Positions 5,827 to 62,900 of a stretch of 64,000 nt of DNA are shown piece by piece. The DNA is from Bryopsis sp. KO-2023 (taxonomy: Eukaryota > Chlorophyta > Ulvophyceae > Bryopsidales > Bryopsidaceae). The notes under the pieces are model-generated. The model worked only from the letters and a program-made list of their open reading frames with translations. It was not told the origin of the DNA and did not search any database. Made by a program: the position numbers and the translations under genes. The stretch's first letter is position 1. Every line of letters begins with the position of its first letter. The stretch is from the NCBI GenBank assembly GCA_030272585.1, contig BSYQ01000001.1, forward strand, positions 1,798,001-1,862,000, given 5' to 3'.

Positions 5827-8800
5827 ATGGGTAGGGAGCTCTGGGACCTGGTGACCTCCGCCAACGCAAGAGGAGGGGGCACAAAGATCTGCGTCGCTTC
5901 ACTTGGGGAAGGCGGCTCTGTGACCTTCAGGGAATACGCATTCGAGACCCTTGTTCACAAGGTGGATTTGCCGGACATGGCTTACGCAAACGGCGACCCA
6001 TCAACTTTCCGATTCGTGGCGGAAGATAGAGGGGCCATTCATTAGATTTCGTTTCCGCAGGTGTCCGCGCTCTCTTCCGCGATCGACGCAGTGAAGCCTG
6101 TTGCTTCCGACGAGACCCCAAGAGTTGCGGTGCTGATAGAGCGCTCCTTTGAATACGTCGTCGCAGTTTTGGCTGCTGTCAAGTCAGGGTAAGCAACAGG
6201 CATTGTTCTTGGTGATTGAATGACTGCGCGACATCAACCACGTTAGTGATGGCTGGAGGCGCGCACTTCCAGGTGCGCCTTCGTTCCAGTTGACTGCAGC
6301 TGGCCCAGCAGCCGTCTATCTCATGTATGCGCGGCGGTCGAAGCATGTGCAGCCATCGTAACTTCAAGAACAAATTCTGCTGGGATCGATTCATTCCGAC
6401 ACATCTCAACTATCCTGGACGCCGATGCCCTCGAGCAAGGTCTCCGCGGCAGAAAGCACGTTCGCCGCCGCAAGCGCAGGAACCGGAATGCTCCTCCACA
6501 TTGCTACGTTATGTATACATCGGGGTCCTCTGGGGTTTCGAAGGGGGTTCTGGGGACAGCTGACGGCCTCATCAATCGTTACCGCTGGATGCAAAGTATC
6601 CACCCCTTTCGAGAAGACGACTTTGTTGCGTTCACCACTTCAACTTGTTTCGTCGACAGTCTTTGGCAGATGTTTGCCCCTCTGTTCTCAGGCACGAATA
6701 TGTTGATCGTACCTGACCAAATTTTACACCAGCCAGAGACCTTCGCCCAGCTCGTTCAAGACGTCGCAGTGACGCACCTGGTACGAAACTGTTCTCCTGT
6801 GTTTGTGGTGGTTCGGTGGAGTGGTTTTCTTATTAGATCGTGTGCTCACACGGACTTCAACAATATATTCGGTTCAGGTCGGCGTTCCCTCCCTTCTGCG
6901 GTATTGGAAAGATAGTTTGAGCCAACGCCAACAGAGTTTAAAGCTACGCCTTATAGTTTCCAGCGGTGACTTCCTCCCCCAGGCGCTGTCGGATGGGTTG
7001 CTTGCTTGCCTTCCAGCTGATGGCGAGCTACTGAATCTATATGGTGGGAAGTGTGAGCTGGTAACCGAACCACCTTCGCATCCTCACCCCTTCCAGTTTG
7101 TGGTGAAACCTTTGTTTGTGTGAATGCGTGGAAAGGGTGCACAGAAGTGTCAGCGGATTGCACGTTTCATAGTGTGAAACCGCCGCTTGATGGAGAACAT
7201 CGCGCCTTGTCCACAGTAGCGGCAGGGATACCCATATCCAACACTATCGTAGCTGTTGTTCGTCACCACAGCCAATCCGCACTCTCAGGAGATCAGAATG
7301 TGGCGTTGTTTCAACCCGTTGAAAGAGACTGCGAAGGAGAAATTTGGGTGGGGGGAAGAGGACTTGCGACGGGATACCTGGGCAGGTGCACCTCTTTGTC
7401 CACATCAGCATTCGTGACGATCAGCAAATCTGAAGTTATCGGTGCACTGGACCAGGAATTTAGCGTCGTTTTCTCAGACGGCTATGACCTTGAAAGTGAA
7501 GTGCGTTTCTTTCGAACCAAAGATCGTGGAAAAATCTCCAAGCTGGGTGAGCTTTTCGCTGAAGTTACGCTTCCTGCTGACGAAGAGCCTTGGATTTGAG
7601 CTGAGTGGGGAGAACACTGTGTCTCAAATTTATGATCCTGCTTCTGTCGCAGGAGTTTTGTGGGTTCTGGGACGCCTTGACTTCCGTTGCAAGAGAAATG
7701 GCATGTGGATTGATCTTCACGAAATAGAGATGGCTGCTGCAGAGCATCCACACGTCTTGGAGGCGGCGGCGCAATTGTTACCAGCGGATGGAGTTGGCCA
7801 GGAACTACATATCTACGTTATACCAGCCACCCAGTCTGATAAAGCTTCAAGGATTTTTGAGAATGAAGCTGACAGTGTGGAGGCCTGCTTTTCTCATGCA
7901 CTTTTTCTGTGGCTAGGTGAGCGGCTACCTCAACATGCACTACCTAGCAAAGTGTACGTCGTCCAGGATTTCCCCAGGACATCAACAGGTAAGGTACAGA
8001 GAGCTGCACTACAGCCGCCATCGTCGAGCAGCAGTGCACACAGGATGAATAAATCCAATGAAATGCGACAGAGGGTAGCCGAAAGGGAAGGTCCCGAAGC
8101 AAGGGTTTTGACAATATTTCGTGAGGCGCTTCAGCATGTGAAAGTGGAACCGAGCAGCAACTTTTTTCTCCTCGGGGGTACATCCGTCGCAGCTGTAGAG
8201 GTCGCGCACAAATTGTCGCTGGATCCAGCGATGATTCCAGCGTTCCCAACGCCTCGATCTTTGGCAAGAGCAATGGCCGATGGAGAAGGTTTACCGACTC
8301 CGCCCTTGGGACAGCTCGGACGTAGCTCTGCATCCCGCATGCATGAATTGGAGATTCACTGCAAAGCGTCGGAACGCGAACAAACGTGTTGGAGTATAAT
8401 TCGACGAGTTTGCAGTATGGAAACGCAGTCTACAAAGGACGGTGTGAATGAACCAAGCGAGAAGAGGCCGAGGATAGGGGTCCAGGGGAATTCGACACTG
8501 ATTTTGGAGACGGTGCTTGCGAGAAAACCAGCCGGGCGCCCTGATAACACACGTGCAAAAGTTCCGTCTGTGACAGGTTACCTCGCGAACTGGAAAGAAG
8601 GAAAATACGTTGAATGCCACGCAGCATGCAGTTCAAACCGTATATTGATCATGAAAAAAGATGGCCAGACAAGGTGGGAGAGAGTTGATCAGCTGCCAAG
8701 TGCAGCCGATCCCAGACCTGCACAAAGGGAAAGTTCGAAAAACTTCGTGGAGCTTTGGTCGTCCAAGTTGTCTCAGTGTGTTGATGCATCTCCTGCGCTT

Positions 8801-9997
8801 GTACTCTTTCTGGAAACACGGACCGCATACTCCAGGGAAGGCCTGGCAATTGGATGCTGTCATGGGGGTGCAGTGGGTTGCTTTGACCTCTTCGATGGAT
8901 CTGACGTTTGGTCCACACAATTGGATGGCAGAGCTGATGCAGGCCTCGCCGTTACTGGCGACTTATTATTCGTCGTGGTGGCGTCCGTCGACCGTGTGCT
9001 TTTTCTTCGTTTAGTCGATGGCGGCTCTATATTCAGTGTAAATGCAGGAGGCGTCGTTAATTCCGCTCCTGTCGTGGACCCATGGCAGGGCCTCGTTTGG
9101 TGTACCTCCCACGGCAAGCAGATCATCGCCGCCACCCCTGAGAATGTCTCCGTCAGGTCGGAGTCCATTTGGAACGCATATTTGCCAGAGGAAGAAGTCA
9201 TTGAAGGTGGAATCTGACGCAAATGTCCATCCTTCCTGCAGGTTTACCACTGAGTCCCCCATCTCAGCCTCGGTTTGCTTCGACGAAAGCCGGAAAAGGG
9301 TGTACGCCGGATGTTTGGATGGGAAAGTCATAGCGTTGGAGGTGTCCAGTGCGCGAACAAACACTGGTGTTACAGTTGCGTGGACCTTCGATTGTGATGG
9401 ACCAATCTTTGGGTCGGCTGATGTGGACCCCATCTCAGGCTTGGTGGTGGTTGCGACAGTTAAGGGCAGTGTTTACGCGCTTTCCTCCCAAGGCAAGTCT
9501 AAGCCAACAGTGAGTTGGTTTTCACGTACACGCATTATCTTCCGACAGAGCCAGGACTCCCTACTTGCAACAATTCGTTCGCATTCCGTGCAGGTCGCTC
9601 CGTCTGGTCGCTGAAGGCAGAGGCTCCAGTTTTCGCACCGGCTGTGTTGCTTCATGACCACGTTTTTGTGACATCCCAGACTGGCGCATTGCTGCTGATA
9701 AAACTACACACAGGGGATATCGTGTGCCGTATTGAAGCTCACACCGTGCCTATTTCCAGGCCACCCGTTTTTTTGGCGAGCAAGGCTGCGGGGTCGGGTA
9801 TCGAGTGCGTGATTCTGTTGTGTTCAACGGGCGGGTTGTTGACGGCACTCGCGCTAGGTGGTCAGGATTCCGTCAGTGTTTCCATTCTTGCATCGAGCCG
9901 ACTCGAGTATGAAGTGTTTTCTGGCCTGCTGGCGCTCAGAGGTTTCGCTGTATTCGGATCAAGGGGCGACCGCCTCCATTGCATAGAACTGGTTTAG
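5827..9997 (+). CDS. AAE19: AAE19/AASDH-type acyl-activating enzyme with carrier domain and PQQ-like propeller
   Basis: Eight exons give about 1168 residues in phase: 5827-5961, 6061-6188, 6273-6780, 6878-7043, 7136-7546, 7653-9156, 9242-9492 and 9594-9997. The adenylation domain shows the P-loop 'YTSGSSGVSKGV', 'LYGCTE' (formed across a splice), 'FRTKDRG', 'GRLDFRCKRNGMWIDLHEIE' and the catalytic-Lys motif 'PRTSTGKVQRAAL'. A carrier domain follows with 'FFLLGGTS', whose Ser would take phosphopantetheine. The C-terminal third is a run of beta-propeller repeats of the PQQ-dehydrogenase type ('VYAGCLDGKVIAL', 'VTSQTGALLLIKL'). This order matches animal AASDH (beta-alanine-activating enzyme) and Arabidopsis AAE19; the substrate here is unknown. 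The intron at 9493-9593 appears to be GC-AG. The exon 6 donor (AG, then GTCGGAG) is weak. The A-domain motif usually written TGD reads TKD. Confidence 0.88.
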
Positions 9998-17796: not shown

Positions 17797-18560
<764 letters not shown>

Positions 18561-19728: not shown

Positions 19729-20659
19729 ATGACTCAATTTGGTGTTCCCGATGATGTCGACGCTTTCCTCCGCCCCATCCTGCTTAAAGACTGTCGAGTC
19801 CAGCTACGCGCAAGAGGCCTCTCTCCCGCGGGCAGCAGAGAGGTTCTCGCGCAGCGGCTGAAGGAAGCCATGGTCGCGACGGGAGATTAGTAAGTGATCC
19901 CTCCCTTAAGTATTGAGGTGCAGCTTGGCCGCAGATTTCGTCACAATGCATCCAAAAATAGGATTTCAAAAAAACACAATTTTGTTATGGGAAATAGTAA
20001 TTCTGGAAGAGCATTTTTTCCTTCTATTTTTTTTTTTTTGTTGTTTCAAATTGTCCGGAAAGAACATTGAGTTGGACAATGCACCCTCCTGCTTGAGGTG
20101 GATCAGCCATTCACTCCACAGCAGTGCCCATATTTTTTTCAGAGCATTCGACCTCCCCCCCCAAAATTGACACCCTACACATCCTCGTCCTTTCAGCACA
20201 TTCAAGACGGCGGAGGGTGAGGTCGACGTGGCCCTCACCGAGTCTGCATTCAGAAGCCAAGAACCTCTAATGTACCAAGAGAGAAACAACTACCATCGCC
20301 CCGAAGGACAAAACGTAGGAAACTTTTTGACCGACCGAAATACCTCCAAAGTCCTTGCCCCTCCCGGAGGAGGTTCTCAAGTTTGCTTCGGCGAAGAGGA
20401 GCCACAGAAACCACCACAGCAAAAACCAGCTCGGCAAGCTGCACCCCCCCCGGTGTCAAACACACCCCCTGTGGCCCCCCCTGTCGCCCCGGCATCCGGG
20501 GAGAGGGCTGGACCTGGCGAGAGGGCTGGAACTGGTGACACTCAGAACAACTATGCCAGACCTGGTGGGATGCAGAATGTTGGTAATTTTCTCACCGACA
20601 GGAGTTCTTCCCGGGTTTTGGCCCCACCTGGCGGCCAGTCCAATGTCTTCTTCGGTTGA
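19729..20659 (+). CDS. SAP domain fused to two SPIRAL1-type repeats
   Basis: Two exons, 19729-19889 and 20197-20659, join in phase (a Tyr codon is split) to a 207-residue protein. Residues about 8-52 form a SAP helix-extension-helix motif: 'LKDCRVQLRARGLSPAGSRE' then 'VLAQRLKEAM'. After the splice come two copies of a SPIRAL1/HN1-type block: 'NNYHRPEGQNVGNFLTDRNT' with 'SKVLAPPGGGSQVCFG', and 'MQNVGNFLTDRSSSRVLAPP' with 'GGQSNVFFG'. A Pro-rich spacer with the repeat 'GERAGPGERAGTGD' separates them. SPIRAL1 proteins stabilise cortical microtubules in plants; SAP motifs usually bind DNA or RNA. The joint function is unknown. The block spacing (repeat near each end of the SPIRAL1 part) matches SPIRAL1. 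Confidence 0.85.
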
Positions 20660-22089: not shown

Positions 22090-25000
22090 CTATCGCTGTG
22101 CACTTTGTTCAAGCTGCCTCCTGATAGTTTCAAATCTCATTCCAAACGCATCCCTCTCTCTTTCAGTCTTCCCGACTTTAACAGCTGCCCTGTCGATGCA
22201 CGCCAAAAGCTCCGATCGCTCCTGCAACAAATCGACACAATGACAATAAACTCGATGCTCTTCTTTCCATTTCGATACTGCTGAAAATAGATAAGCACAT
22301 TATGCGTGTGTACATGTGTTCTCTCCCCCCCCCCAAAAAAAATGCTGACCTGCTCATGTTCTTCCTCTCTGATTCTAGCTTGTTCCGATACTGCTTCTGC
22401 GATGGATGCCCGTTGTAAGGCCGCCTCTAAAGCAGACCTCATATCTGCCTGGCTCCGTTGCATCGACGATATTTGTTTCCCGAAATCCCCCTCACCCCTC
22501 TGAATCGTTCTGAGCTCCTCTTTCAGCTCGGCCACTTCATTTTTGAGAGCCTCTTCGATTTCAGCCCTCTCAGCTACAATCCTTTCGCATCGATTCGAGA
22601 GCTAGAAAAGAAATTCCACAAATCACTCTCAGTGGTTCTTGGTCGAAAACCCAAAATATATATATATATATATATTATATATTTTTGTTCCTTCAAATGC
22701 ACACCATTGGTGCTGAAAGCTTCATGTTTGGATACCGATAATATTCTGGATCGCTCCATGACTGTCCCTTGAAAAGACGATTGCTCAGCAAACAACAGTG
22801 AAATCATTAACTACTACAGTCAGGTATGTCTGTATGTCTGCTATTGGTGTTCCAAAACTGTTGCGACAATTGGCTCTGAACATCGCCCCACAGACAATGA
22901 CTAAGCAGGGTAAATCGGCACACACCACCAGGGCTTCTTCCTTCCATCTGACGACCAGAGCTTCTCGAGAATCCATGATCGCCTGTGCCTCATCCAGCTG
23001 CCGTCTGTTGATACCAACGAGTTTCTCCATTTTCGAAGTCAGCGTGATCACCTCTTTCTCGTGTTCCAGCCGCATTCGTTTCATTTCTTGTTTCTTCCCG
23101 GACTCCATCTCTTCCCTAGCTTTCTTGCATGCAGAGTGCTGCCTCAAGGAAGTGTCCAGTTGATGTTGGAGCCTGGTCACCTCCAATTGACCATCTCTCT
23201 GCGACACTTGCAGGTCCGCCGCTTTCTTTCGCAGCTCCTGGATATTGGCCTGACAAAATCACCACAACAGACCTGCAATGCTCAGTTCGCTCTTTCAGAC
23301 GCTAAGATTGAATTATCTTCAACACAAAAAATCTGCCCTGAAGCATCAATCTGGTTATTGATGTTTGGATAGTCCTGTCAGTAGGCTTCTTCCCACCTCA
23401 AGGTGTCGTTTTTCAGATTCCCATTCCCTGCCTCTTCGTTCTGCTGCTCTCTCCACACTGGCCAGCTTCTCGACAGCTTCTTGCCTGTCATACTCCACCT
23501 GCTGCAGCCGTTGCATTTCTTCGACCCCAGAAACAGTGATTCCTGTCAGGCTGCATATCACTTTAGACCCTGACAAGTCTTTCTTCAGTTCCTCATGTTG
23601 CTCCTCCAGAAGCCTCTTTTCGTGAATCAAGGACTGGTTTGATGCTTCCATGTCAGACAACTGAAAAAGGAAAGCAGCACGTAACCCCATGTCAACGCTC
23701 CAGCAAACCCACTCTGGTTAAGTGACACATCGAAAAGACATATTTCTTTTGATACATGAGAAATCCTGCATTTTTTATTTTTTTTTGTAGTAGGACGAAC
23801 CTTATGTCTTGCCCTGCGTGCCTCTTCCTCAGCTTGCTCCAGTTGAACCATCAAGCGATTGGAGTGCTTGCTGTGGGCTGCCTGCAATTCAGCATGCGCC
23901 TCCTGTCTGTACACCTTCAGCTTTTGGTTAAGACTCTCGACTTCATGCCTCAACTCGACCTCCTTGCGGATAGCAGCATCCCGAGTGCTCTTTGCATTCT
24001 CAGCAGCATCAACAGCTTCTTTCACCCGAATGAAGGACTGAACCCCCCCCCACACACAAAAGTCCCTTTTACGCATTTCTCTTGACCATCGAAACAGGTC
24101 ATTTTAAGGAGTTATCAAGCTGCCTGGGTTCCTTGGGGAGAAGTCTGGGTATATTACCTCCGAATCCTTTGTTTGATATTCTTTGAGGCTTGATGAGGTT
24201 ATTCTGAGAGCTTCGTGGAGTCTGACCGCTTCGCCGTGACTGGCATTCAGCTCAGCACGCAGAATGGCATTGTCTTCTTTCGAATTACTGAACTCCACCT
24301 GCAAAACATGAATTGTAAATCAGTTTTTCCATGCAAATGTTAGAAGCATGGTTCTGCTTCTGGACTCTTTGATAGAAATTCTGCTGTAAAAAAAAATGTA
24401 CAAGGCTATGCCTCAGAATAATCTAAGTGTGAAAAACTCTTCAAAGCTGCAGCTGCCTCAAAAAATTTCACCTCAGATACCCACGATATACTACCCCCCA
24501 CGAGTAGTCGTACTCTGGCAAAAACACAATTCCACAAAAGACGGAAAGAATGAAAATTACGGTTACCTCGGCTCTCTTCAACTTGAGTTGAGCTTCCCTC
24601 ATTCTTGCCAATAACCTTTGCACATCATCGGCTTCGGAATCCTTTTCTTGGTCGGTCTGACCTGCTCGATGCTTCAGCATTTCATTCTCCTGTTTGATAT
24701 TGTCAAGCTCTGTACGTAACTCACCCATCCGCCCCTCGGCACCGCCCAGCTGCTTCTTGGAGCACTCCATCAAAATGTAGGTATCGTCACGCTTATCCTG
24801 AAAAAAAATTCGAAGCGAATCTCAAATCCTTTGACCATGAAAATGAATTGACCATGAGCAAATTTTTTGCCACTTTTTCCAACTTTTTTCTTTTTTTTTT
24901 TTTGGGGGGGGGGGGGGAGGGTACCTTGTACTCCTTAATCTCTGCAGCCTGGCTCTTCATTTTCGAAACGAGCTGCACGTTTTCCAGCCCCAGTTTCTTG

Positions 25001-26965
25001 CTCTCCTGCTGCTCCTCACAAAGTCGTTTGTCCAAAGCTGCCACCTGCCGTTCCAGCCCCTCCTTCCTTTCGCTCAAAAGCTCGTTTTCTTGAGCAAGGA
25101 GCGTCAGCCGATTCACGACTTCACTGGCCTCACCCACAACACCAGCATTCCCAGACGTGTTTTTCTCCATGAAATCCATGGATTCTCGAAGCTGCTTCCT
25201 CAGATTTTCATTCTCTTTGACGAGGATTTCGGCCTGTTTCTTGGCGGCATCCAGAACTTCAGCAGACTCCTCAACACGGGAATTGAGTTCGCCTATTCTG
25301 ACATCGTAAGCCCCCAGCAATGGGCACATCTTGTCTGACTCAGCCAGCCAAGCAGGAGGAAGCCCAGCAACATCCCCAACATCCTTCCAAAGTTGAAGAA
25401 CAAAAAAGCCACGCTCAGCAAAAAGTTCATGAAAAAAAAGGGTGGTTTTCTGAACATTCCTGTGGCTGATCATCCTGTGGAAATGGCGAAAAGTAAAAGA
25501 GAAAAAAACACACAAGTGTTCTACCTGTGTTGACGAACTTTGTGGCACTTTCCCACTTGAAGTCTGACATTCCTCCAATGCATCCGAAAGCCGCCTCACA
25601 AGGTCTTCCAGAAACCTATGATGTGGAAAAAAAAAGATTGACGGGTTGGAAAGCAAGATTTGCAAACCACACCCCACATCGCTTACCGCCCCAATGCAAT
25701 GACTAAGGCAAAATATACACAGAAACATGCAAGAACCTTGAGCGTTGCATCAGCCAGAAGCACCCTCCACACCTGATTCTTCCTTTCAAATCTCGGCGCT
25801 CCTCGTTTTCGTCGCCCCCATTGCTGCTCGCGGCTTTGCTGTCATTCTCACCAAAAATTGCTGCCTGAAATTCCTCCTCATCGGTGAGCAACGTCACAAT
25901 ATCACTACAAGTCTTCAACACCTTCTGGCTGGTATTGGTTCCAGCTTTTCCCTCGGAATTATCGCCACCCAGTCCAGGGGGGACACCCTCCTTCGAGCGA
26001 GGCTCCCCACCACCACCACCTCCTGAATCTAATCCAGGTTGTTTCTCAGATGTGGGTTCTCCTGTGACGCTCATGGGCGACATTAACCCCATCGATTGGC
26101 CAAACCCCAAGCTGCTTGATAGCCCTGGACCTTCCGCTTTTGGAGTTCTAGGTGGAGTGGTGCTGCCTTCCTGGTTTGCATACCTGTTTCCAGCTACGAA
26201 CTGGGCATGGACATTTAGAGTCAGCCCCAGCTCAGTGTTTTCGGTGGTGGTTCCAGTCCTTGGGATGTTTCTGCCTGAAATAGAAGTTTGAATTCGGTGT
26301 GTACCTGGACCCACTTCTTTAAGGCACTTTGGAGGTCATAGACAGCCAGGCCAGGAGCTTTGATTCGAAGAATCTGGGGACCCCTGGTGGTGTTCAGCTG
26401 GACGTCCAAACAATCGGGCTCTCCAGCGTGGTTGCCCCTCGTACAGGATTGCTTCCATCGCTGTAGAGAGCTGTACGTCGAGTGAATGAACACCTTCACG
26501 GTAAGGACACAAAAGACGTCAACGAATGACGACTCTGGAGACCTGCGTGAGGGTTTACACTTGCTACACTTCCTGAACTCCAGGCTTTGACCGAAAAAAA
26601 AGTGAGAACTGCTTTGTTTGAATGCTGTGGAAACGATATCGGGGTCGCGCGTCGGAATGGATTAAGAAAAGTGCCAGAAACAGGTCATATGCCCACACTG
26701 AGTTGAATTATTGCATCGGGGATTTCGACACGTCCCCAACGTACTAGGGAGAGTCTTCCCCCACCCCCGCTTGGGTCGTCTTATCTCGAACTCGCAACAG
26801 AAACGGAGAACTCCACGAAGACGTCAAGCACATATTTCACGGCGAACGTCAGCGCACCTCACCGTCGGGTTGCAGAAAAGTGATGCCCTCGCCGTTCATC
26901 TTGAGCGTCATTGGCTTCGAGGCGCCCGAGCTGGACACCAGCTCCACGCTGAAACAGTCCTCCAT
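22090..26965 (-). CDS. Long coiled-coil protein with small N-terminal globular domain
   Basis: Twelve exons chain in phase to about 950 residues: 26965-26858, 26493-26305, 26200-25773, 25615-25525, 25383-24925, 24797-24567, 24298-24158, 24037-23801, 23660-23397, 23249-22929, 22601-22350 and 22221-22090. The first 100 residues form a globular module ('MEDCFSVELVSSSG', 'VFIHSTYSSLQRWK', 'VYDLQSALKKWVQ') with the alternating pattern of a PH-like fold; that is only a suggestion. A Gly/Ser/Pro-rich linker follows, then about 700 residues of heptad-rich coiled coil (for example 'ELRTELDNIKQENEML', 'DMRSALEAALQRASIAEAV'). I cannot name the family. The shape fits a Golgi, centrosome/basal-body or cytoskeletal scaffold. 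An AT repeat and C/G runs lie in its introns. Confidence 0.8.
22655..22682. repeat. AT dinucleotide tract in an intron
   Basis: About 28 bp of nearly perfect TA repeats in the intron between exons 10 and 11 of the coiled-coil gene. No function is evident. Confidence 0.9.
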
Positions 26966-56939: not shown

Positions 56940-59900
56940 ATGTCATTGGAGCTTCATGCAGCTCTTGGCTTCCTTCAAGCCATACATTACAGCGCCAAAG
57001 TGGCGCGGGTGAATACGGCGTGCTGTCGAGCGCTGTCGCGCGCGGTCGGGAAGATCCGACCGGTGCTGGAGGAAATCGACATGGCAGAAGCGGACGGCAC
57101 GGAGCTGTTGTCGCTCGGTGAGCGCGCGCACACGCAGGGCGATCGTACTTCGCGACTGGACGCGCTCCAGTTTGCGCCTGTTGTGTGCTCTGCAAGCTCA
57201 AATTCGACGGTTAAGCTCGTGTGGGATGTTGTCACAGTCAGTGGAAAGGAAAAAGAGTCTCAGGGACGGGATATTTTGTCCTGTCGCGACAATGTTGGTG
57301 TATCCCAAGCTAATGGGCCAAGCAGTGGAAGCTGTTGGGGTGTGTTGTAGTTCTGATTTTTTCTTCACATCCCTCTCCCCAGCATGCAAATTGTGGCCTC
57401 TCTGATTTCATTCAGCAGTTAGCATTACAAATCCCCAACCACCCCCTTTCCCCCAAAGTCGAGATTGGTTTCCCTATATAGGCCATGTTCATCCTTTGCG
57501 GGAGGGTTGTTCTTCACTGGGGGTTGGGAGTTTTTTCCAATCACTGCTCCTTGGGTGGAAAATTCTGTTTTTGGGGCTTTGGACCATTCTCAGTAACTTC
57601 CACCCCTGCTCGCAGTGACTGGACCCCAAAGCTCCAGGTTTTATCTCTCTTTGTATAGAAGTCGAGGATTGCAGGCCACTGAGTTGGGAGGGGATAGAGT
57701 GCTTAGGTCAAAAGTCGCGATGCTTGTGTAGAGTTGACAAAAGAGCAGCTATTGTGTGGATTTTTGAAAAAGCAACGATTAGTGAGAATGTTGGGTTTGC
57801 ATGCAGCTACTCTTGCGGCTGCCCTTGAAAATGTACACATCATGATAGTACGATTTTCGGCGATGGGCCAGCTGCAAGCAGTTTTGGGATCAGAAGCAAT
57901 GTTTTCGCGGTTTAGCCAAGCATGTCAAGGAGTTGCGAAGGCTTTGGAGGGCTTGCTTGAGGGAGAAACGAAGGTTTTACTAATTTTTTTCTTTCCTGCT
58001 TTTATTTTATTGTTGTTGGGGGGGGGTCAACTTGGTTATGCTGTTTTGCAGTGAATTGAAATGACTTTTCTTATACCCGTTGCTGGGGTGCTTGATATTT
58101 TTAAATCCTTTCTCGGATTTCTGGACTGCTTGCTTTTTCTTTCTTTGAGTCATTGTTTTATAGTTTTCCAAGGTTTTCTTTTCCATGTCAACTGTGAGGG
58201 GAAAAAACCCAGAAAAAATCGTGTTTTTTTTTTTGTTTTTTAAAGAAAAACCACAGCAGAGCACAGCGCCCAAAGTAGAAAAGGTTGTATCAGAGGGTCA
58301 ACCGTGAGTTGGAAGAAAAAAATATAACATTCTTTTTTTCTCGTGTCTTTTTTGTGCTGCAGTGCTTATCAGACTGCGAAGAAGACATTCGCAGAATATG
58401 TGTCCAGCTGCGTGGCCTGAAATATGGTGGGTCAACATCAGATAGGCAGCTGGCCAGTCAGGTCAGAAATGCGGCACTTCAAATCATCAGGGGTGAAACA
58501 GAAAGGGTTGTTGGGCACAAGGATATTCGAAATATGCTGTATGGCGTGTGCCGATATGCAAGAGAAGATATGGCGCTTGAATTACAAGGGCTGGAACGTG
58601 AGCGATCAAGGGCAAAAGCTGAAAAGGATGAACTGGAAGTTCAAATTCTTCAAGAGGTGGGCATTCTGAATTCCGAGACAGAAACAGTGAAATAACCAGA
58701 AAAAGAAGTTAAAGAATCGATAGCGGTGGATTCGATTATTCTAGAACAAACAATTTGAATTTTTGTCAAATATCAGCACAGCGCTTGCAGGCAGGCATTA
58801 TTGGCGCAGTATTTTTTCTTTCCCTGCTTCCAACATTATCGTTTCCATGTTTTTTTTTCTGATTTTGGTGTTTTTCTGCTCGAGTGGAGTGGTCTGAGAG
58901 TGCTGATTCTGTTATTTGGGACAGGTTATTTTGGCACTCGAGGGAAAGGCACCGGCGGCTGTGTTCCCCAGCCGCCCGCAGCCTCCTGTGGAGTACCTCT
59001 GCCCCATCTCCAAGATGATAATGTCCGACCCCGTTGTACTTGTAGAAACCGGGCAGACATATGACAGACACTATATCGAACAGTGGTTCAGGATGGGGAA
59101 CCGCACCTGTCCGATAACCAAACTAGCTGTACGGGACTTGCAATTAACGCCAAATTATGCTCTTAAGAGTCTGGCGAGCACCTGGGTCGAAGTCCATGGA
59201 GGGGACGGACAAGAATCTGAGCCTGATGGGGTTGAACAACAACAGTTCGGTCAAATGAATACCTTTCTGAGGGCACAAAATAAGAACGAGGCCTGCATTA
59301 ATGGAGATACATTCGGCAAGCCTGGCATGATGAAAGGCGAAGGGGCCGAGAAGGGCAACTTCCATTTGGGAAATGTTCCGGTCATGGAGGCCGAGGCCAT
59401 GCTCCGGAGCACTTTTTTTGGCAAGTTGGGGTTTCTGGGGAAGGGTCTTACTGGGGTTTCTAAAGGGGTTTTAAAATTGGGGGGGACTGTGGGGAAACCG
59501 GGTTACGCGGAGAGTTTCAACGGCAGCGTCAATCAGTCGCTGTTGAAAAAGGGGGAGGGAGATATGGAAGGGGACGGGCAGAAACAGACGGATCCGATGC
59601 CGGCACGGGATGCTCTGGAAGAATTGAAAACTTGTCTGAGTAGAGAGACGCGGAGCTGCGATTTGCCACGACAGAACAGCAGCATCAACCCGATCGCGGA
59701 TGGGGCACCTGACGAGGATGCCGGAGAATCGACCAGCACCGAAATCTTGAACGACGGTGATGGCTTGCCTCCGAGACCTCCGCGATTATCGTTGGATGCT
59801 GGGTTCAATGGCGGGTCGGCTGCGGCGAGGTGGAGGTCGACAGTTAATCCCAGTGGGAACCCTCAATCCGACATGTCGAGGATGTTACAACAACGATTGA

Positions 59901-62900
59901 ACAATTTGACTAGGGGTACCATGTCCAAGCGGGGAGAGTTGCAAGTTTTGTCAGATGTCATATCATCAAGCAGGCAGTCATTGGAGTTGCACAGAAGGCC
60001 AAGGAGTCCATCGGATCCCATTTACGACAGTGAGTGACCCCTTCTCTGTTTTTGTTCTTCTGCTGCTCCCCTCCTTTATCCAGTAATATGAGTTGTTCTG
60101 ACAGGAGTTCGAGGATTGCCTTGATGAATATGCAGGCAGACATGCAGCAGGTTGAGATATGTTTTGTGCAAATTTCTTATCATAGGCGAGGATCCTCCAT
60201 CGTCAAGCCATGAAGTGAATCCTCTTCCAGACCCCAGCATGAGTGGATCGTCATGCACAACTGCCATTCTGGATAGGGACGATCCTGATGTCAATCCAGC
60301 CATGGCAGGCTTCACGGTCTACCGTGTCGGAATGGACGGAAGTTGCGACATGGCCGATGGAATGCCAGGGGGATTCAATTCCGATGCGATCAGTCAAGCT
60401 TCGTTCCCGTACCATCCCTGCAGCATTTCTTGTTGCAGTGACAGTTCGATCGAGGAGATTGAGTACTTGGAAAGTGAGAGGGACGATGCAAGGAGTGAGA
60501 TTTGGATCGACAGCAACGAGTTTGATGCCTCCAGCATCGCCAGTCTGTCGACCATAGCCCCAAGCGGGATAACCATCACTCCTTCCATTTCCTTCAAGCT
60601 GAGACAGTCGCGTCGTCCCTCGTTCAAAGCTTACAAAGGAGGGGACGGGCTGAACGGGGCCACGAATTTGCTGTTTGACGAGGCAGAGAGTGAATGTGGG
60701 GAAGGAGATGATATGAACGTCAGCACACCAGTTTTGGTCGAAATGGTGCAATCCGGGGATGCGGATGTGGCAGTCGCTTCGGCGAACGAACTGGCACTCA
60801 GGGCATACAGGGACCCGAAAGTATATAGCATTGTTCAGGACTCCAACTTGATCGAGAGGCTTGTGGCGATGTTGGCAGAGGGAAGCGATGCGGGGGTCGC
60901 GGCTGCAAGAACTCTTGGAACGCTCGGGGAGAGTCAGGTGTTGCGGGTTGAGATCGTCAAGTCTGGCGCTTTCCCCGTCCTTTCGGAAATGACTCGAATC
61001 GGGAGCTCCAAGACTATGGATATTGCATCTTGGGCGATGAATCAGCTGTCCAGGGAGAAGGCCCCGTCCGGTGCAAGATCTCTTGCAAGCATGAGTGTGG
61101 AGGTGTCAACCCCCATGCTGGTGCAGATGCTGTTGGCTGGCGAGCCCGACGTGCAAGCCTGTGGTGTACTTGATCTGAAGGAGAGACTCTTGAGGTTACC
61201 TCAGAATTTTGAGGATTTGACCAAGCCAGATGCTGTCTGGACGTTGGTCGATATGCTTGAGCACGATGTCGTTGATGTCCAGCTCGCAGCCGCAACATTG
61301 TTGAGTCTTCTAGTGTTTCGAAGTCAGGAGGTGCATCAGCAGGTAGCCACTCGGGCAGGCACTGTAATCAGGCTGGTCAGATTGGTGAAGGATGGGGACG
61401 ACAGCTGTGCGGCGGCGGCTGCTCAGGTCCTTAGAACTCTGGCACACAGCAATTCAGGTGCACGGGAAGAAATGCTGAAGAGGGGCATCGTGCCCGCTCT
61501 TGAGCACCTCTTGGGCTGTCCCACACCTGAGGCTGGCGCCAGGGAGGTGGCTGCATGGTTGTTGGGAATTCTGGGATCCCACACGGAGGAGTCGCAAGAT
61601 TTAATTCGATCAGGCGAGGCAGTCTACCTGCTCCAGAATTTGTTCGAGGTCGGTCAGCCGCAAGAGATTGTGGCGGCTTCCTGGGCGCTGCAGAGCATCT
61701 TGTCGGACCCCGAAGAGCTCGGGGAATGCGAGGTGTCCATCCCACTCGTGATTGAATCCTTGCAGTCCAGCATCGACGAAATCAAGGTGGCGTCCGCATG
61801 GGAGCTGTGTCACTTGGCCAACGGCAGTTTCTGGGTGCAGATGGAGATTTTTAATTCAGGGGGTCTTCAGACTCTTTTGGACTATTTAAAGGCCAACCCT
61901 GCCACGGAAGGCAGCCAGGCAGCCTTGGTTGCTCTTGCCAAAATGGCAAAGGACGTACCTCCGGTCCCTGCCGCCATATGCAGGGAGGGAGGGGTCCCCA
62001 TTCTTGTTGGATTTTTGAGATCAGTTGATGATGTGGAGAAGCATCTTGCTGTCGAGGTGCTTACAGTTTTGGCGGACAGGTGTCCATTGCATCAGCCTGA
62101 GGTGGTCACTGAGGGCGCCGTTTCAGTTTTGGCTGAAATGCTGAACGACGCGGAACCCACTGCCTGCATGGCTGCTTACAATGTCCTGTCGAAATTGGCG
62201 AACAGTGAAATGTCTGCAGTAGTTGGGTCGATGGCGTCCATCAGTGCACCAATCCTCCTGAAAACGCTGGAGGGGCCCAACCCTGCTCACAGCAAGGAGG
62301 CTGCTGCCAGAGTCGTTGATTCGATCGCATCGACTGCGGAAGGAAAGGAGGTGCTTCTTAACCATGGGGGGATGCCCCTACTTATGAAGGTAATCCACAG
62401 CAGCCCAATCGCAAAATTCAGCAGAAATATATTGTCTATATATGTATATACTGTCTTCAAAAAGGAAACCTTGGAAATCTGAGCGCAGTGAATGAAATCA
62501 GTTGTTGGGCCTGTCAGAGATTGCAGAGGGTATTTCTTTTTTTTCTGGAATTCAAGTGTGTGTTTGGGGGCATTGCAGGTGATGGAAAATGGTGAAACAT
62601 ATGAAATCAAAAAGATGGCTGGAAACGCAGTGACGAAGCTGGCCAAGAAGGACCAAAAAGCCCATGTGAATCTGGCTGGATCAGGGGCTTTCGGCACTTT
62701 GGTGCAGTTGTTACAGTCAGCCAGTTCGCGCAGGAGAACGGAAGTGTTGCAACACGACGTGAGTTGATACAGAAGTGGGATTTGTGTGTTTGTGTGGAAT
62801 TGAGTTTTACAAGAAAGAATGTCAGACAAGCTGGGCACCACGAAAGTGCCCGCGCGACTTTTGGCTGTGTGTGTGTGTGTTTTCTCTGCTCCAGCCCGAA

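Follow-up and report, generated by a model that had tools for sequence, protein, structure and literature searches.

A candidate green-algal gene that joins a SAP motif to two SPIRAL1-type blocks

Two plus-strand segments, 19729..19889 and 20197..20659, in the window (the whole 64,000-nucleotide stretch of DNA that was analysed) form, in silico, a two-exon candidate gene that encodes an open frame of 207 residues. Coding exon 1 (19729..19889) begins at the ATG at 19729 and supplies the first 53 residues and two bases of the split codon 54; it carries a SAP motif, with residues 20-47 as the Pfam stretch. A phase 2 intron of 307 nt follows (19890..20196, plus strand, GTAAGT...TTTCAG). Coding exon 2 (20197..20659) then encodes an acidic joining stretch (residues 54-78), a first SPIRAL1 block, a proline-rich linker, a second SPIRAL1 block and, at 20657-20659, a TGA stop codon. 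The donor context is ..GGAGATTA/GTAAGT, cut at 19890, and the acceptor context, with the intron ending at 20196, is CCTTTCAG/CAC; the codon split at the join, TA/C, encodes Tyr54. A preliminary description of this DNA had proposed these exon coordinates and an in-phase join through a split tyrosine codon, and both are right. Unspliced, the 53 codons of exon 1 run into a TAG (19888-19890) exactly at the GTAAGT donor, and read-through would be stopped immediately.

Six GT dinucleotides in 19760-19896 and 15 AG dinucleotides with exon starts in 20122-20284 define 90 possible donor-acceptor pairs, 17 of which leave a frame open through both SPIRAL1 blocks. The proposed donor is not unique; all 17 joins begin at the ATG of the SAP exon and retain both blocks. 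Donor 19890 gives an open frame only with the acceptors at 20197 and 20257, the latter resulting in a protein of 187 residues. In the remaining 15 open pairs, the donors (19798, 19843 or 19873) match the consensus at 3-4 of 9 positions, whereas 19890 does so at 6, and the acceptors are at most 64% pyrimidine, compared with 86% for 20197. The 19890/20197 join is thus one of several possible, and it has the best sites among the 17 open joins. In tubulin-type genes of this genome, six introns could be fitted under the requirement of a GT or GC donor and an AG acceptor. They are 145-641 nt long, a range that includes the 307 nt found here; three of them, lying in copies that share under 50% identity with the query, are less certain. 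The six donors are GTAGGT (twice), GTACGG, GTAAGC, GTTTGC and GTTTCT, and none is GTAAGT. On both strands of the window together, GTAAGT is scarce, with 7 occurrences found versus 34.5 expected from base content, and its presence at the very end of an open frame is less likely to have arisen by chance, but is not proof. From these features of the sequence, the two exons are presumably joined by splicing in the cell. As a separate observation, TTTCAG, TTGCAG and CTGCAG all occur above expectation on the two strands of the window.

Upstream, on the same strand, a HIT-domain open frame ends at 18560, and downstream there are minus-strand frames that are coiled-coil-like by eye; nothing in these surroundings points to a function. 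Elsewhere in the window, a long coiled-coil-like frame at 24796-25749 (minus strand) has a weak match to CENP-H (E 0.0038, 17.5 bits, cut-off 29.9) that may reflect the coiled coil alone. The plus-strand region 6250-9214 has matches, in order, to AMP-binding, AMP-binding_C, a phosphopantetheine site and an ACSF4-type beta-propeller, and is probably a gene for a beta-alanine-activating enzyme. A U-box followed by ARM repeats identifies 58907-62479 (plus strand) as a plant-type PUB ubiquitin ligase gene.

Within exon 2, SPIRAL1 block 1 (20285..20392, plus strand) has the sequence NNYHRPEGQNVGNFLTDRNTSKVLAPPGGGSQVCFG and is identical at 23 of 33 positions to Arabidopsis SPR1. Block 2 (20546..20656, plus strand), NNYARPGGMQNVGNFLTDRSSSRVLAPPGGQSNVFFG, forms the C-terminus, and the two are separated by a proline- and alanine-rich linker (20393..20545, plus strand). 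When folded without an alignment, exon 2 has a mean pLDDT of 52, and the linker, with its low-confidence fold, is probably disordered. After omission of a single block 2 Met codon from the alignment, the two blocks have 28 of 36 residues in common, at 20 of which different codons are used, and the nucleotide differences at codon positions 1, 2 and 3 number 9, 6 and 26, respectively (NG86 dN 0.22; dS not computable). As the identical residues are encoded by different codons and the differences are mostly at third positions, the blocks have been under long-standing selection on the protein sequence. A degenerate 29-base motif pattern has two matches in the window, both at the blocks, versus a chance expectation of 0.00 (100 shuffles). 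Aligned locally with SPR1, the whole protein scores 132, whereas none of 2000 shuffled sequences exceeded 65. The block core is also similar to animal Jupiter/HN1. Exon 2 matches Pfam JUPITER (PF17054) in two stretches with 22.7 bits (E 8.5e-5), which is below the family cut-off of 27; the full protein scores 21.4 bits, and a six-frame genome search gave 14.7 bits (E 0.95) at this locus. The block core RNTSKVLAPPGGGS, aligned with the JPT1 sequence RNSSRVLRPPGGGS, scores 86, with shuffled sequences reaching at most 72 in 2000 trials.

Exon 1 alone matches Pfam SAP (PF02037) with 26.6 bits and E 4.6e-6, above the cut-off of 23.9, in a scan of 24,736 models in which the next family has an E value of 0.14. 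The match was also recovered in a six-frame search of the genome with SAP, at window positions 19786-19869 and again over the cut-off (26.1 bits), where it is the weakest of the 12 matches listed. Scored as part of the full 207-residue protein, it falls to 23.1 bits (E 5.5e-5), just below the cut-off. A pattern written after the sequence had been seen recognizes both features of a SAP core, its Gly-x-basic turn and its hydrophobic spacing. SAP domains have a helix-extended loop-helix fold; single-sequence folding of the SAP part predicts helices at residues 8-28 and 33-50 (mean pLDDT 70, pTM 0.39). With this model as the query, Foldseek returned 16 matches at E≤10, none of them at E≤0.001, and hence no significant structural match. 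NCBIfam gave an E value of only 0.14. A sequence search of the PDB gave three weak matches; the best is to the SAP domain 1zrj (E 0.28), and pTAC3 (E 1.5), which also contains such a domain, is third. We conclude with good, although not perfect, confidence that exon 1 encodes a SAP motif. The fusion of such a motif to two SPIRAL1/HN1-like blocks, as recognized in the preliminary description, is supported by the profile, frame and substitution evidence.

A second SPIRAL1-type locus was not found in the 91-Mb assembly with block 2, JUPITER or Arabidopsis SPR1 as queries, a search in which intron-split copies could be missed. The SPR1 query gave three further matches, with E values of 0.5-1.5, and their alignments resemble low-complexity noise without the GNFLTDR core. 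Two contig collections, viral_contigs and genome_contigs, neither of them made up of eukaryote genomes as such, were also scanned. With the full-length protein as query there were 35 and 599 pattern stretches, respectively, and with the SPIRAL1-block profile 11 and 48, none of which was confirmed; two motif patterns had no match in viral_contigs. A full-text search of 5.39 million papers found none that has 'SPIRAL1' together with 'SAP domain', and literature searches for 'SPIRAL1' with 'HN1', for 'SPIRAL1-like' with 'diatom', and for Klebsormidium with SPR1 of streptophytes likewise found nothing. The SAP-SPIRAL1 architecture may be common in green algae and yet undescribed.

The SPIRAL1 and SPIRAL1-like proteins of land plants (SPR1, SP1L) share with the predicted protein the C-terminal sequence NNYxRxxGQNxGNFLTDR....APGGGS, present here twice, and also a small size. 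The 207 residues of the algal protein start with a SAP motif, whereas SPIRAL1 family members are described as having an N-terminal GGG(Q)SSLxYLFG repeat as well as GGG/PGGG motifs (PMC9959322). SP1L genes have one intron (PMC9959322), as is predicted here for the coding region. The GGGQSSLxYLFG repeat is absent from all 207 residues, and the blocks end in SQVCFG and SNVFFG, rather than the SSLDYLFG of SPIRAL1. In plant SPR1, the N- and C-terminal parts are reported to bind microtubules independently (PMC6892981). Animal Jupiter/HN1 proteins (JPT1, JPT2) have the RxSxRVLxPPGGGS core in common with the blocks and the Pfam JUPITER family is detected here; the match is, however, below the family cut-off (22.7 versus 27), the core is preceded by a SPIRAL1-type NNYxRxxGQNxGNF half, and JPT1 is not known to have an N-terminal SAP motif. 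Drosophila Jupiter is a microtubule binder, as reported in PMC3375142.

A search of the PDB with a three-block SPIRAL1 profile, in which two of the blocks are from this locus, gave no match below E 0.1, and the full protein had a sole PDB match, at E 7.9. The first and third of the three matches to the profile were the C-terminal tails of the dihydropyrimidinase-related proteins CRMP5 (4b90_A, E 0.16) and CRMP4 (5nks_A, E 0.71), in which an R-x-x-x-[RK]-[IV]-x-APPGG-x-S-like element resembles the SPIRAL1 and Jupiter blocks. At these E values the resemblance to CRMP is a lead, with homology only putative; a number of microtubule proteins may have a short R-x-x-x-[RK]-[VI]-x-x-PPGG-x-S element in common.

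The domain layout, an N-terminal SAP motif (residues 20-47 here) followed by a part that binds microtubules, putatively so in the algal protein, is that of vertebrate NuSAP1. NuSAP1 is longer than the 207-residue protein, and the protein described here is not basic overall. It also has no KEN sequence, whereas NuSAP1 has a KEN box (PMC10650578). The SAP motif at the N-terminus of NuSAP1 is proposed to serve chromatin, with a separate domain for microtubules, and separate mutations are described that loosen the attachment to chromatin or to microtubules (PMC10650578). Membership of the NuSAP family was rejected, as a Pfam scan of the full protein to E 10 gave SAP and JUPITER only and no NUSAP (PF16006). 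By analogy, NuSAP is nevertheless the nearest working counterpart and a known precedent for a SAP-plus-microtubule protein, one that the preliminary description did not name.

The reading that we favour, at roughly even probability, is that this single locus encodes a SPIRAL1/Jupiter-type binder of the microtubule lattice with a SAP tether by which microtubules are linked to chromatin, nuclei or RNA. The gene would direct synthesis of a mostly disordered, 207-residue microtubule-associated protein. Its two C-terminal Pro-Gly-Gly blocks, with a flexible linker between them, would bind the lattice, as suggested by SPIRAL1 and Jupiter, and the N-terminal SAP helix pair, on its acidic stretch, would tether nucleic acid or possibly protein. 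Such a protein could bring chromatin, nuclei or RNA to microtubules and so work much as NuSAP does, with a different microtubule module. Both the microtubule binding and the cellular role are proposed from these resemblances.

What the SAP helix pair holds is the point on which the nearest alternative differs. The fusion would be real, with the SAP part binding a protein or dimerising, and the product would stabilise or cross-link microtubules and have no nucleic acid role, in effect an algal SPIRAL1 with another N-terminal half. As the computed charge of the SAP part is only about +0.5 at pH 7, barely basic, and the whole protein has a pI of 6.6, strong binding to nucleic acid is not obvious, and with the N-terminal SPIRAL1 repeat absent, the SAP motif occupies the site of the first microtubule-binding end of SPIRAL1. 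The exon 1 score, which is above the SAP cut-off, together with the turn and the spacing recognized by the post hoc pattern, argues the other way and is consistent with nucleic acid binding by the SAP part, as we infer. We regard the alternative as possible, although on the unlikely side.

Two separate products, with the SAP exon part of a different transcript and a short SPIRAL1 protein that starts at Met79 under its own promoter, are improbable. This arrangement would account for the position of Met79, directly before SPIRAL1 block 1, and for exon 1 running straight into a stop codon at the donor. The start context of Met79 is, however, the poorer of the two, with C at -3 versus A at -3 for the ATG at 19729, and the neighbouring frames either have already ended, at 18560, or lie, by eye, on the minus strand. 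In the joined frame, moreover, no stop codon interrupts the 24 codons before Met79, and these resemble coding sequence. In a codon-usage test with 2413 training codons and with stop-free placements in the window, real coding sequence among them, for comparison, they score 6.1 bits, a moderate value equalled by 3.4% of placements. Exon 1 has a weak score of 2.3 bits, equalled by 16% of placements, and the intron scores below zero in each of the three forward frames. The power of the test is low, because the SPIRAL1 blocks themselves score only -0.4 and 0.3 bits, and it neither proves nor disproves exon 1. It is likewise improbable that exon 1 resembles SAP by chance and is in fact a short N-terminal exon of another kind: the sub-threshold score of the full protein (23.1 versus 23.9), the weak codon score of exon 1 and the Foldseek result would fit, but the E value of the exon alone is 4.6e-6 over 24,736 models, with the next family at 0.14, two helices are predicted and the weak PDB matches include 1zrj (E 0.28) and pTAC3 (E 1.5), both of which contain a SAP domain.

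The preliminary description had also raised the idea of an early streptophyte form, from a time before the SAP and SPIRAL1 domains separated. This idea is unsupported, as PsaD encoded in the assembly is identical at 104 of 104 residues to chain D of PDB entry 6igz, from Bryopsis corticulans (PMC9931709). The other single-copy PsaD chains all score below the 224.8 bits of 6igz_D, and a streptophyte origin was rejected on this basis; the land-plant chains among them score about 180-185 bits. The top whole-chain score belongs to 9vfj_D, a chain with three PsaD repeats that each score at most 139 bits. The assembly has two PsaD copies on one contig, one identical to 6igz_D over the 104 residues and the other different at 2. 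The window thus very probably derives from Bryopsis, a coenocytic chlorophyte, or from a close relative of it, and not from a streptophyte.

Returning to the lattice binder with a SAP tether, its most far-reaching form would be a green-algal, NuSAP-like linker of chromatin or RNA to microtubules, with SAP placed before SPIRAL1/Jupiter repeats, that evolved independently of animals. In a giant coenocyte, this protein, the only one of SPIRAL1 type found in the genome, might tie nuclei, chromosomes or mRNA particles to long microtubule arrays. The proposal in this form is tentative and, taken as a whole, unlikely. SPIRAL1 is familiar chiefly from land plants, as a very small protein that regulates cortical microtubules. 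A SPIRAL1-type protein of a coenocytic chlorophyte, with a SAP motif where the N-terminal repeat is usual, would place the family deeper in the green algae, connect it through its sequence with animal Jupiter/HN1 and provide a second, unrelated case of the SAP-plus-microtubule layout of NuSAP. The protein is a candidate, small and testable, for the attachment of nuclei or RNA to microtubules in a giant multinucleate cell.
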